This document shows, piece by piece, positions 53,406-60,425 of a stretch of 64,000 nucleotides of DNA (position 1 is the first letter of the stretch; each line of letters starts with the position of its first letter). The notes under the pieces were generated by a model that did not search any database, had not been told where the DNA came from, and worked only from the letters and a program-made list of their open reading frames with translations. Source of the stretch: Enterobacteriaceae endosymbiont of Donacia crassipes (GTDB lineage Bacteria > Pseudomonadota > Gammaproteobacteria > Enterobacterales > Enterobacteriaceae); the NCBI RefSeq assembly GCF_012569785.1, contig NZ_CP046202.1, forward strand, positions 120,643 to 184,642. The letters are read 5' to 3'. Both the position numbers and the translations under genes were made by a program.

Positions 53406-54278
53406 ATGAAAAAAAAAATATATTTATACATACAACGTTTTTTACCAAAATTATTTATTACAAATATTTTTGGATATTTATCTAAAAAAAAATTAAATTT
53501 TATAACTACTTTTTTTATATTTTTATTTATAAAAATTTACAAAATAAATATGAAAGAAACAAAATATCCTAATATTTTCTATTATAAAACTTTTAATAAA
53601 TTTTTTATCAGAAAATTAAATATGTCTAATAGACCTATTGATAATAATAAAAATCATATTATTCATAATTCAGATGGTATAATTAATGAGATTGGTTTTA
53701 TAAAAAAAAACAAACTTTTTCAGTTTAAAGGGTGTAAATATTCTTTATATAATCTTATAGGAAATAATAAATATATTAATAAGATTTTTACTAATGGAAA
53801 TTTTATTAATGTTTATTTGTCTCCTAAAAATTATCATAGAGTACATATGTCTTATAATGGAATTTTATTAAAGATGATATATATTCCTGGAAAATTATTT
53901 CCTGTTAATAACATTATTACAAATAATTTATGTAATTTATTTATTTTAAATGAGAGAGTAGTTTTTTTATTCAAAACAAAATTTGGTTTTATGATTAAAA
54001 TTTTGATTGGTGCTCAAATAGTTGGAAGTATTCATACTTCTTGGTATGGTTCAATAATACCTCCTAGAACAAATAAAATTTTGACTTGGAATTGGCCATA
54101 TATTAATAATTTTAATAAAAAAGATTTTATTTTTTTGAAAAAAGGTGAAGAAATGGGTTATTTCAATATAGGATCAACTGTTATCACATTGTTTCCACCT
54201 AAAACAATTAAATTTAATCCTATTTTAAAAAAAGGGTTGAAAATAAAAATTGGAGAATTATTAGCATCATTTAAATAA
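53406..54278 (+). CDS. psd: Phosphatidylserine decarboxylase
   Basis: Makes phosphatidylethanolamine, the main zwitterionic lipid, at the inner membrane. It self-cleaves to generate a pyruvoyl cofactor. 290 aa, against 322 in E. coli. Seen: FFIRKLNMSNRPID, DGIINEIG, the YLSPKNYHRVHMSYNG active-site region, and the processing motif GST with Ser257 in YFNIGSTVITLF (LGST in E. coli reads IGST). The C-terminal alpha chain is shortened. Convergent with an epmA pseudogene; mscM, which lies between them in E. coli, is absent. Confidence 0.94.
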   Translation: MKKKIYLYIQRFLPKLFITNIFGYLSKKKLNFITTFFIFLFIKIYKINMKETKYPNIFYYKTFNKFFIRKLNMSNRPIDNNKNHIIHNSDGIINEIGFIKKNKLFQFKGCKYSLYNLIGNNKYINKIFTNGNFINVYLSPKNYHRVHMSYNGILLKMIYIPGKLFPVNNIITNNLCNLFILNERVVFLFKTKFGFMIKILIGAQIVGSIHTSWYGSIIPPRTNKILTWNWPYINNFNKKDFIFLKKGEEMGYFNIGSTVITLFPPKTIKFNPILKKGLKIKIGELLASFK

Positions 54279-54292
54279 TAAATAATTTTTAA

Positions 54293-55228
54293 CTAAGATT
54301 TAATGATAGAAAAACTTACAGATTTATGAATAAATTTTTGTTTTAATAAAAACATAATAAACTTATCTAAACCTAAAACCATAATTAAACAATTAGATAT
54401 ATTACCATATTTTATCGATTTTAAAAAAAAAATCTATTTTTTTAGAAGATAAACTCATTAGTTTTCTTTTATTATTAATTTGATTAAATCATTTTGTTTA
54501 TTCTAAAATATCATTTAATTCGTAAAAACTATTTCCTAATTTTATTCTTTTAAAAAAAGTTTCAAATTTATTTGCCAAATTTTTTTTATTTATAGTTTCT
54601 GTAATTTTTTGTGTTAATGAAAAATGATATATTATAATTAGATTTTTGTAACTTAATTTAGGAATGATATATAAATTAAATTATATTTGTATATAATCAT
54701 TAGTTATATTTTAAGTAAAATTTTTATTATTATTTTTTACAAAATTAATATTCTTTATTAAAGAAAATAATTTTTTTTTGTTTAACATTAAAAAAATTTA
54801 TATTTAAAAATTTTAAAAAAATATTTTTATATGAACATTTTTTAAAAATATTAAATTCAAATTCTATAAAAAATTTATTTACTTCTAACATTAATTGTGA
54901 TAGATCATAACTAATATGATGTCATTTTAACGTATTAAATTCTGAGTTATAATATTTTTCTAATTCTTCATTGCAAAAATTATGATATATTTGATAAATA
55001 AATTTGTTTATATTTGATACAAGAATTTTTTTCTTATGATATTCAGGACTAGTAATTAAAAATAACTTCTTTTTTTTTATAATTAATAAAATTTGTATTA
55101 AACTATTTTAAATAAGGGCTAGTATTTTAAATTGAGTTAATATTGATGTTTCTACTTCAATAAAATTTTTTTATTAAAAAAATTTTTTTTCTTCTTACTA
55201 TAAAAAAACGTTTAATTAGATTAAACAT
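54293..55228 (-). pseudogene. epmA: epmA pseudogene (EF-P beta-lysyltransferase, PoxA/GenX)
   Basis: EpmA is a LysRS-like enzyme that ligates (R)-beta-lysine to EF-P. No long frame exists, but segments in different minus-strand frames follow E. coli EpmA in order. They are: MFNLIKRFF (start at 55228), FIEVETSILTQ, LFLITSPEYHKKKILV, NEELEKYYNSEF then a TGA where E. coli has Trp (54924-54922), IIIYHFSLTQKI, RIKLGNSFYELNDILE, and a terminal GLGLDKFIMFLLKQK reaching a stop at 54293-54295. The span of 936 bp equals nearly the full 325-codon gene. Motif 2 Arg is Cys (FCNEE for FRNEE), and motif 3 Arg is Lys. Several frameshifts and stops make it non-functional. Position between psd and efp matches E. 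coli. Confidence 0.88.
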
Positions 55229-55286
55229 TTTAATACTAGTTAACTAATTAAAATTTTTTTTTTTTAATTTTTTTGAAATATATTAT

Positions 55287-55859
55287 CTATAATTTATAAC
55301 GAGAAATATATTTTTTTTTTCTTATATCAATTTTAATCAAATCACCTACTTTAATAAAAGAAGGTACTTTAATTAATTCTCCATTACTTATTATTGCTTG
55401 TTTATTGTGATTAATTATTGTATTTCCTTTTACTACAAAATCTGTATTAATTACTTTTAATCTAATAAAATTAGGTAATGTTAAAAATATAGGTAATTGG
55501 TTCCAAAATGTAATTATATAATTATATTGAGGAATTAACCATTTTTTTTTATTTTTAATAATTTGATTATCAATCATAATTTGTTCAAAATTATTTTCAT
55601 ACATAAAATAATAAAAATTATTTTTTTCATTATATAAATATTTTAATTTTTTTTCTAAAATATCAGCAGTATCTAAATTATCAGTTGATTTAAAAGTTTT
55701 ATCAATTAATTTTTTTGTAATTAAATTACGCATTTTGATTCTAACAAAAGCTTGCCCTTTACCAGGTTTTACAAATTCATTGTTTTCTATAATATAAGGT
55801 TGATTTAAAAATATAAATTTCATTCCAATTTTAAAATTATTACTAGAATAATTAATCAT
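55287..55859 (-). CDS. efp: Elongation factor P
   Basis: Binds between the ribosomal P and E sites and relieves stalling at polyproline stretches. 190 aa, against 188 in E. coli. Seen: N-terminal KOW-like domain with the loop FVKPGKGQAFVRIKMRNL carrying Lys34, the residue that is beta-lysylated in E. coli; TFKSTDNLDTAD; a middle OB domain; and the C-terminal VKVGDLIKIDIRKKKYISR-like end. The loop is intact although the genes for its modification (epmA, epmB) on both sides are pseudogenes, so EF-P probably acts unmodified. The middle domain is more diverged than the N-terminal loop. Confidence 0.95.
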   Translation of the reverse strand: MINYSSNNFKIGMKFIFLNQPYIIENNEFVKPGKGQAFVRIKMRNLITKKLIDKTFKSTDNLDTADILEKKLKYLYNEKNNFYYFMYENNFEQIMIDNQIIKNKKKWLIPQYNYIITFWNQLPIFLTLPNFIRLKVINTDFVVKGNTIINHNKQAIISNGELIKVPSFIKVGDLIKIDIRKKKYISRYKL

Positions 55860-55924
55860 TTTTTTCTTTTTTTAAAAAATTATTAATTTATAATATAATA
55901 TATTTATCAAAATAAAAAATTTTT

Positions 55925-56674
55925 ATGAAAGAATTATGGTTACAATAATTATCAAATATTATTAATATTTAATATTAATCTAATCAAAATCACAAAAATA
56001 ACCAAAAAAACAATCAACCATTTTTATATAAAAAAAATATAAAATTTAATGTTAAAATACTTTTTATTTTTATAAAAAAATAGAAAGAACTAATTATCAA
56101 GATCTAATCTTATTACAATTTATTTTACATAAAAAAATTAATTAAAAATAAAAAGTATAATAATCATTTTAAATGAAAAATTTATTATTCCAGGGATGAT
56201 CCATAAATCTAAAAATAGAATATTAATTCTAATTATAGGAATATGTGCAATTGTTTCTGTAAAAATAATAAACAAATAAATTTAATAAAAATTTTTAGTA
56301 AATATAAATTTAATATTGTTATAGTTACTCATATTTATCTAATAAAATTAGTGAAAAATTATTTAATAAAATTTTACTTTTAAAAAAAAAAGGTATTACC
56401 TTACTAAATCAAAATATTTTATTAAAAAATATCAATAATAATTATAATATTTTAATTAGATTAAGTAATAGTTTATTTAACATTGGAATATTACCCATAT
56501 TATATTTATTAGATATAAATAAAAGAAGTCAATATTTTATTATTTCTGAAAAAAAAAGTTAAAAAAATTATACAAAAAATATCATTATTTTTATCAAGAT
56601 TTTTAATTCCTAAATTAACTAAAGATATTTATGGGAAAAATATAAAAAATGTATTGTATAATAAATTCCCATAA
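55925..56674 (+). pseudogene. epmB: epmB pseudogene (lysine 2,3-aminomutase for EF-P)
   Basis: EpmB is a radical-SAM enzyme converting lysine to (R)-beta-lysine for EpmA. Pieces in shifting plus-strand frames follow E. coli EpmB in order: MKELWLQ then a stop; ERTNYQDLILLQFIL; IPGMIHKSKNRILIL followed by CAI where E. coli has the CxxxCxxC iron-sulfur motif (only one Cys left); GITLLNQNILLKNINNN; NSLFNIGILPILYLLD; then, after a frameshift in an A-run, SRFLIPKLTKDIYG to a stop at 56672-56674. About 80 codons of the radical-SAM core are deleted (750 bp against 1029). It is divergent from efp exactly as in E. coli. Confidence 0.87.
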
Positions 56675-56769: not shown

Positions 56770-58440
<1,671 letters not shown>

Positions 58441-59177: not shown

Positions 59178-60425
59178 TTATTTCTTAATTTTAATTAAGA
59201 AATAATTACTTTTGATAATAAAATTTTTATACATAAAAAGAATACTTTGATAAACATATAATTTATTAAAATAATCGTAATAATGATAATTATTTTTATA
59301 ATTTATTAATTTTTTTTTTATAAAAAAATATTTTTTAATAGGTTTAAAAAACTTTAAAATTTTTATTTTAACAGAACGATTTGTTATTAAATATTTTTCA
59401 AGAAGTTTATGATTATGAATTTTTTGATATTTTTTATTAATAAATAAATTATTTTCTAATTCTTTAACAAAAATAATTTTTTTTGCTAAATGATTATTTA
59501 TAGATAGTAAATATTTAGCAATTTCTTCTGTTCTTTTTTGAAATAAAAAATTATTTTTATGATTTTGTTCAAAATAATTAATATGATCTAAAGCTACTAT
59601 TTTGGTATTAATATTATTTAATAAATTTTTTAATTTTAATGAAAAAAATTTGTGCAAAATTTTTTTATTTTTCTTGTTTAAGAAAATATTTTTGAAAATT
59701 TTGATAAAAAATTTTTCTTTAGATAAAAGATTATTACCATAATTATTATTATAATAATTTTTTGATTTATTAATTAAATTTTTTACTGAAGGTAAATGAT
59801 ATTTATCAAAAAATTTATATATTATACTAATGCTAAACATGAAATTATTTGTTTTTTGTCCTAAACTATCATCATTTTTATTTCCAATATTTTTGATTAC
59901 TCGATATTCAATTCTAGATGATAAGTTATCTTTAATTTGATATTCACTACCAAAAGAAAATAATGGAGAAACATTATAATATAAGTTATCTAAATTATGA
60001 TATTTATAATTATTACTAAATTGATTAAAATAAGATTTAGCAAAAAATCCCCCTAAACGAGTATATAAATATAAATTTGTAAATATAGGATATCTAATAT
60101 TAGTTGTTAGTTGTATTCCTTTTACTTCAAAAACATTTTTAATATTATTATCAATATTTTTTTTAATAGTTCCTAACCAATCTAATCCTAATTCTAAACC
60201 TAGAAAATTATTTGTTTGATATCCCAAAAAAAATCCATTTCCTAGTTTATTAAAAAAAGTATATTCTTTATCATCAATGTCTTTTTCTAACAATTTAATA
60301 TTATTATATTGTGATAATCCAAATGTAGAACCAAAATACCAATAATCTTTAAAGTTAGACTTAGCATTAGCAATATTATGAATACTTATCATAATTATTG
60401 TAAAAATAATAATTATTTTTTTCAT
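59178..60425 (-). CDS. ompA: Outer membrane protein OmpA with divergent C-terminus
   Basis: Eight-stranded outer-membrane beta-barrel with a periplasmic peptidoglycan-binding domain. 415 aa, against 346 in E. coli. Seen: a signal peptide of 21 residues cleaved after ANA; a barrel domain (~22-205) with WYFGSTFGLSQY, FFLGYQTNNFLGLELGLDWLG, YTRLGG and FSFGSEYQI; a linker; and a degenerate OmpA_C domain (~265-360) in which VALDHIN aligns with the TDRIGS Asp and FQKRTEEIAKYL with the LSERRAQSVVDYL Arg, the two DAP-contacting residues. The last ~60 residues are a Lys/Tyr/Asn-rich extension with no family match. The Pro/Ala hinge is lost. Confidence 0.88.
   Translation of the reverse strand: MKKIIIIFTIIMISIHNIANAKSNFKDYWYFGSTFGLSQYNNIKLLEKDIDDKEYTFFNKLGNGFFLGYQTNNFLGLELGLDWLGTIKKNIDNNIKNVFEVKGIQLTTNIRYPIFTNLYLYTRLGGFFAKSYFNQFSNNYKYHNLDNLYYNVSPLFSFGSEYQIKDNLSSRIEYRVIKNIGNKNDDSLGQKTNNFMFSISIIYKFFDKYHLPSVKNLINKSKNYYNNNYGNNLLSKEKFFIKIFKNIFLNKKNKKILHKFFSLKLKNLLNNINTKIVALDHINYFEQNHKNNFLFQKRTEEIAKYLLSINNHLAKKIIFVKELENNLFINKKYQKIHNHKLLEKYLITNRSVKIKILKFFKPIKKYFFIKKKLINYKNNYHYYDYFNKLYVYQSILFMYKNFIIKSNYFLIKIKK

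Follow-up and report, generated by a model that had tools for sequence, protein, structure and literature searches.

Joint loss of the EF-P beta-lysylation genes epmA and epmB, with efp retained, in symbionts of reed beetles

In the symbiont of the reed beetle Donacia crassipes, the two genes for beta-lysylation of elongation factor P (EF-P), epmA and epmB, are both broken on either side of an intact efp. Both genes are intact in the closest relatives, and they have been lost jointly on four branches of the genus, with efp kept together with its Lys34. Beta-lysylation is generally regarded as important for EF-P function in this bacterial branch. As described in PMC5354580, beta-lysine is the product of EpmB, and EpmA is the enzyme that joins it to Lys34.

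The source genome (G000) consists of two contigs with 464,968 bases in total, the larger one of 458,439 bases and the remainder of 6,529 bases. Positions refer to the window, i.e. the whole stretch of 64,000 nucleotides that was analysed. For comparison we used a genus set of 24 reed-beetle symbiont genomes, G000 included; Table 1 of PMC7289800 gives 26 species of reed-beetle hosts, and the symbionts of D. versicolorea and D. semicuprea are without counterpart in our set. Hosts were assigned as D. piscatrix for G003 (NZ_CP046200.1), D. tomentosa for G006, D. cincticornis for G022, D. proxima for G015, Macroplea for G002 and G020, Neohaemonia for G017, and Plateumaris for G010, G012, G014, G016 and G019. 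Genomes with both enzymes are referred to as keepers, the others as losers. The features of the region are as follows.

53406..54278, plus strand: psd, intact flanking gene (phosphatidylserine decarboxylase; PF02666, E = 3.5e-57)
54294..55258, minus strand: epmA pseudogene (EF-P--(R)-beta-lysine ligase), identified by NF006828 in pieces, by DNA identity to G015, and by stops and indels
55287..55859, minus strand: efp, intact, elongation factor P of 190 aa with K34 in PGKGQ, identified by TIGR00038 and Pfam and assessed by dN/dS
55925..56661, plus strand: epmB pseudogene (radical-SAM lysine 2,3-aminomutase type; TIGR03821, E = 4.3e-14), with indels and deletions; its start was set by eye from the sequence and its end from the alignment
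56770..58428, minus strand: groEL, intact flanking gene, an open frame of 552 aa with an ortholog in 25 of 25 compared regions

The name groEL reflects our own reading of the protein and is presumed. Further along the window, the first half of 59178-60425 (minus strand) encodes a PF01389 OmpA-type membrane domain, and the second half has no Pfam match; its product is 33-81% identical to the other genus copies found.

The presence of relics in the two spacers was established by profile search of G000. The EpmA profile NF006828 matched in two pieces on the minus strand (E = 5.0e-24 and 2.2e-15; window 54426-55191 overall) and the EpmB profile TIGR03821 matched on the plus strand (E = 4.3e-14; window 56338-56565), confirming the first-pass annotation, which had read broken copies of both genes next to an intact efp. 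At 82.6 and 54.3 bits, the EpmA pieces stay below the cut-off of 264, and they carry stops; a full-length EpmA frame (NF006828 / TIGR00462) is absent. In the nearest keeper, G022, EpmA reaches 341.8 bits against the same cut-off, and for EpmB the best-matching profile is TIGR03821, at 355.7 bits, below the curated 369.3. At the DNA level (blastn), the epmA relic shares 85% identity with its intact counterpart in G015 across an alignment of 975 positions (E printed as 0.0), and the best epmB piece shows 88% identity over 394 positions (E = 1.6e-137).

Aligned to the intact epmA of G022, the epmA relic contains 9 in-register stops, among them W6 TAG and W115 TGA, and 5 frame-shifting indels. Its motif 2 has changed from SFRNE to NFCNE, with loss of the arginine (R to C); we take SFR to hold the class II motif-2 Arg. 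The TGA at a Trp codon, the several frameshifts and the lost motif-2 arginine had all been read correctly at first pass. The epmB relic displays 1 in-register stop and 11 frame-shifting indels relative to G022 and has 244 bases deleted, including one 213-bp and one 13-bp deletion; this amounts to approximately 81 codons, in agreement with the earlier estimate of about 80. By contrast, the earlier reading that two of the three Fe-S cysteines of EpmB were lost has to be corrected: the 13-bp deletion takes out only the middle Cys codon of CxxxCxxC, while the first and third are still found in the DNA, the third out of frame. A full-length EpmB frame with the motif is absent. Searching the genome with the profiles revealed no second EpmA copy and no second EpmB (TIGR03821) match, which answers the concern that intact copies might lie elsewhere in G000. 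Four further EpmA-profile matches fall below the EpmA cut-off inside open frames of 485-582 codons, which by our reading are presumably aminoacyl-tRNA synthetase genes.

The codon signature is gone from both relics. At the first, second and third codon positions, identity with G022 amounts to 0.83, 0.86 and 0.85 for the epmA relic and 0.86, 0.90 and 0.90 for the epmB relic, and the corresponding values for the intact pair G022-G015 are 0.89, 0.96 and 0.84 (epmA) and 0.94, 0.95 and 0.86 (epmB). Constraint has been lost to a similar degree in the two: against G022, G015 and G003, dN/dS is 0.53-0.60 for epmA and 0.51-0.53 for epmB, as compared to 0.20-0.31 for the intact pairs among these three genomes. 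Against the more distant G007 the relics yield 0.58 (epmA) and 0.39 (epmB), with 0.25-0.43 for intact pairs involving G007. Values of this size correspond to a path about half free of constraint, and selection thus seems to have been absent from both genes along much of the D. crassipes branch. On this terminal branch the decay looks old and near-simultaneous in the two genes, and not as if it had only just begun.

Next we consider the distribution of the two enzymes across the genus. Both are present in 15 of the 24 genomes, both are broken in two (G000 and G006), neither is detectable in seven, and none has only one. EpmA scored above its cut-off in 15 genomes, and those same 15 carry a full-length open EpmB frame of 345-365 bits, slightly below the curated 369.3. 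SFR and CxxxCxxC are each kept in 15/15 intact copies, and the intact genes evolve under constraint in the groups tested (dN/dS 0.21-0.39; 11 to 13 genomes grouped for the test). The dN/dS groups for efp and the intact enzymes were formed without G006, G017 and G007, that for carA also without G003; G007 was used for the relic dN/dS. With G018 as the aligned reference, the epmA of G006 shows 8 in-register stops, of which one falls on the start codon, together with a single frame-shifting indel; its epmB shows 5 stops and 5 frame-shifting indels. The G006 relics show dN/dS of 0.39-0.46 (epmA) and 0.32-0.36 (epmB), with 0.24-0.53 for the intact pairs in that set; as there is no clear rise, the loss is either recent or undatable, should the test be too weak on this long branch.

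The seven gene-less genomes (G002, G010, G012, G014, G016, G019 and G020) gave no EpmB match and no EpmA-profile match beyond long open frames scoring below the cut-off. Their spacers of 48-711 bases hold no recognisable epmA or epmB remnants, tblastn at E 0.01 detected none in these genomes, and blastn returned only short matches (29-41 bases), which fell on the wrong gene no less frequently than on the right one.

These states were placed on a tree of 8 proteins (3465 columns; LG+F+G4), with G028 as outgroup. G003 is represented without carA and carB, G023 without ygfZ, and the outgroup by orn, groEL and groES only. In G003 (completeness 83) the best open frames for carA and carB have only 173 and 167 aa, perhaps due to sequencing errors. 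G000 falls within a bootstrap-100 clade with the keepers G022, G003 and G015, and groups with G022 at 88. G006 alone forms the first Donacia branch (99), the Macroplea symbionts G002 and G020 are together sister to the keeper G017 (99), and the five Plateumaris symbionts are grouped (100). The deeper order of the published host tree, as given in PMC7289800, agrees with that of our symbiont protein tree. In the outgroup, both enzymes are encoded by open frames that include the motifs. A minimum of four losses is needed for either gene, and the branches concerned coincide: D. crassipes, D. tomentosa, Macroplea and Plateumaris. The joint loss of one modification pathway, proposed at first pass from G000 alone, hence receives support and recurs on four branches within the genus. 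For losses placed at random by branch length, the chance of two four-loss sets coinciding is approximately 1.1e-4; with equal weight for each of the 46 branches it is 5e-6. Both figures take the number of losses as given, treat branches as independent and ignore lineage-wide erosion. Given that epmA and epmB lie on opposite sides and opposite strands of efp, a single deletion cannot take both and spare efp.

A local block deletion was also considered and rejected. The gene adjoining epmA, psd, has no match in G002, G008, G010, G012, G014, G016, G017, G019 and G020 and is 155 aa long in G011. Ten of the 24 genus genomes therefore lack psd or have a short version of it, namely seven of the nine losers and three of the 15 keepers (G008, G011 and G017), and the gene is intact in G000 and G006; the patterns overlap only partly. 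The absence of psd from seven of nine losers indicates that shared erosion of whole lineages is possibly part of the story.

EF-P itself is retained throughout. The search for efp gave one match per genome, an open full-length frame without stops, in 24/24 genus genomes; 18 of these score above the curated cut-off of 185.8 bits and six slightly below it (179-185 bits). The EF-P of G000 belongs to TIGR00038 by its score of 198.5 bits and contains the three EF-P domains PF08207, PF01132 and PF09285. Lys34 and the PGKGQ loop, already recognised in G000 at first pass, are present in all 24 genomes, including all nine losers, which is the loop of the beta-lysylated subtype. Nei-Gojobori dN/dS of efp was averaged by group, the losers covered being Plateumaris, Macroplea and G000. 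The ten Plateumaris pairs have a mean of 0.30, the single Macroplea pair stands at 0.24, and G000 versus its three sisters averages 0.22; the keeper groups lie at 0.18 over 28 pairs, 0.31 over three pairs and 0.37 for one pair. There is thus no visible relaxation of EF-P after enzyme loss in the losers covered (without G006), and inspection of the alignment by eye made no convergent EF-P change evident in the genus losers. The earlier suggestion that EF-P works unmodified fits this purifying selection on efp.

The same annotation had offered, as a second possibility, that the proteome has shed its dependence on EF-P. A scan of G000 for CCNCCNCCN found 46 sites, and the counts overlap between the nine losers (46-49) and the 15 keepers (43-54), both strands being counted with frames unsorted. 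In frames of at least 40 codons, five PPP readings of G000 lie in the longest frame at the site; one of them is located upstream of the likely gltX start and was excluded, leaving four counted as genes. We take these to be glyQ, gpmA, valS and lepA, of which only valS is backed by a profile match. PPP in ValS is kept in 24/24 genus genomes. Shedding of dependence holds only partly: just four PPP genes are left in G000, ValS among them, but a shedding peculiar to the losers was rejected on account of the overlapping CCNCCNCCN counts and the universal PPP of ValS. As PPP-type counts do not separate losers from keepers, the scarcity of PPP may explain why loss is possible, not which branches are affected. 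At approximately C1:53273-53280 of G000, the frame read as GlyQ carries PPP (KPPPYN); the E. coli site reads KPSPDN, and the PPP in G000 may be a gain and not a loss.

Stand-in factors were sought as well. Replacement by EfpL was rejected on the basis of the efp model, which gives one match per genome in 24/24; EF-P and EfpL models cross-match strongly, and an EfpL should thus have appeared. The ABC-F linker PF12848 matched 0/24 genus genomes; as a control, the same model matched eight of 14 named genomes, E. coli among them.

To view these losses in a wider frame, we surveyed the family. From 392 genomes drawn, 75 had no EpmB match; 20 of those 75 were examined and combined with 41 small genomes (up to 1.8 Mb) having some match into a set of 61, which is not exhaustive. 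Both enzymes were found in 38 of these small genomes, EpmA only in three (G099, G106 and G166, the state described for Buchnera APS, with EF-P loops still reading PGKGQ), EpmB only in none, and neither in 20. G146 and G415 (E about 5e-4) and G397 (broken, 9e-27) were scored as without EpmB, and G162, G147 and G328 as with EpmA despite stops in the matches. From three EpmA-only and zero EpmB-only genomes among 61, EpmB may go first in some lineages; the 24 reed-beetle symbionts include no such one-enzyme intermediate. G397 has both enzymes broken around an intact efp, and G167, G269 and G339 of the same genus keep both. Among the 20 enzyme-less genomes, efp was matched in 16, with one broken copy (G169) and one containing 2 TGA (G148); no efp match was obtained in G029, G030, G094 and G124, the last only 84% complete. 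Lys34 is present in all 15 readable loops of these 16 genomes. Three of the 15 loops are changed (PGKGK in G146, PGKCK in G148, PGKGH in G135), as against 29 of 29 unchanged PGKGQ loops read from the 38 genomes with both enzymes, a contrast that was noticed post hoc and is small. These departures from PGKGQ, together with missing or broken efp in enzyme-less genomes, could reflect relaxed function.

Taken together, we consider it probable that epmA and epmB are dead relics, that the beta-lysylation pathway was lost as a unit, and that bare EF-P stays needed. With a handful of PPP motifs in the proteome, the benefit of beta-lysine on Lys34 would fall below the reach of selection. Decay of either enzyme would then render the other neutral, and both would vanish; we know of no use for EpmA or EpmB except together. 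EF-P with a bare Lys34, as it presumably occurs in the losers, would be enough for the remaining PPP proteins (ValS, LepA, GpmA and GlyQ by our reading), and may also give general help at slow peptide bonds. Counting against this is the importance of beta-lysylation for EF-P activity in E. coli and Salmonella, as described in PMC4739656 and PMC5354580. On balance we lean towards the view that an EF-P of the beta-lysylated subtype is selected and works with bare Lys34 in the long term, a threshold that would have been crossed at least four times, the pathway becoming dispensable through proteome shrinkage and not through a replacement enzyme.

Several other explanations have to be weighed. EF-P might be turning useless and be the next to be lost, its retention being a time lag; among the 20 enzyme-less small family genomes, efp is indeed unmatched in four and broken in one. 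However, Plateumaris symbionts, in which no trace of the enzyme genes is left, still have a full-length efp in 5/5 genomes with dN/dS of 0.30 (Macroplea: 0.24), and in G000 the relics reach 0.51-0.60 against the three nearest keepers where efp shows 0.22, so that we regard such a lag as unlikely. The invariance of Lys34 and PGKGQ in all nine genus losers looks as if the residue were still needed, and Lys34 might still be modified by another enzyme, through a YmfI-type route as in Bacillus, a promiscuous LysRS or a novel enzyme. According to PMC11611912, the same EF-P position carries different modifications across bacteria; the EarP described there modifies Arg, though, and not Lys. Beyond the relic, the EpmA-profile matches in G000 fall in long frames that we read as aminoacyl-tRNA synthetases, and the only EpmB-profile match is the relic; with the search covering these two profiles, we hold continued modification to be quite improbable.

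A host or a co-resident bacterium might instead supply the modification, by a transferred gene, an imported enzyme or imported beta-lysine, in line with the host supply of missing amino-acid synthesis steps that PMC7289800 proposes for these symbionts. Yet any supplied beta-lysine would still have to be attached by EpmA within the symbiont, where this enzyme is gone, so that import of a protein would be required; we hold this to be very unlikely. Finally, homopolymer runs are common in this AT-rich genome, and the shortened carA and carB frames of G003 (completeness 83) illustrate that the breaks might be sequencing or assembly errors. Against this, 10 in-register stops, 16 frame-shifting indels and a 213-bp deletion are spread over two genes while efp, psd and groEL are intact, and codon-position identity is flat in both relics; errors as the cause of the breaks are therefore extremely improbable. 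The loss of the pathway as a unit, with EF-P remaining in use, is the reading that we retain.

The E. coli type EpmA-EpmB-EF-P system has the same gene set and loop sequence as the region studied here, but in the window both enzymes are pseudogenes. The closest known parallel among insect symbionts is Buchnera APS, in which efp and epmA (poxA) are present and epmB (yjeK) is lost, as stated in PMC2821294 and by Rajkovic et al. 2015 (PMC5354580). Both keep efp, and each has 4 PPP genes, by PMC5354580 and by our count for G000, respectively. Unlike the D. crassipes symbiont, which has lost both enzymes, Buchnera APS keeps EpmA, so that alpha-lysylation is possible there; it also differs from the genus in that the loss reported here is paired, occurred on four branches and left no one-enzyme state among 24 genomes. 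A lysine-sparing idea put forward for Buchnera does not separate losers from keepers, as PMC7289800 describes lysine synthesis as retained in the symbionts of all four host genera. For the mollicutes analysed in PMC4014445, EF-P is present without homologs of EF-P modification enzymes. They share with our losers a reduced genome and an EF-P retained without EpmA and EpmB, but belong to another bacterial branch, whereas the loss reported here took place inside a single genus, where relics occur next to sister lineages with intact genes.

In the literature searched on EF-P modification and symbionts, we found no description of a repeated complete paired loss. The main text of the genome paper of these symbionts mentions neither an elongation factor nor pseudogenes, the main text of PMC12508126, a source of RNA-seq data for the symbionts of M. 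mutica and D. marginata, mentions neither efp nor epmA, and PMC11611912 left 14 symbiont genomes out of one of its analyses. As far as searched, the repeated paired loss thus appears undescribed, yet it extends a known theme. PMC5354580 asks whether obligate symbionts trend towards incomplete EF-P modification; our data answer that many in this family are incomplete and that the loss can be complete.

Closely related lineages with and without the enzymes all keep EF-P, and further enzyme-less genomes exist in the family. D. crassipes versus D. cincticornis and Macroplea versus Neohaemonia provide matched pairs for asking what benefit the modification confers. If our reading is true, the genus would constitute a natural replicated experiment on the purpose of the modification, and the repeated loss suggests that EF-P serves these shrunken bacteria well enough without being modified.
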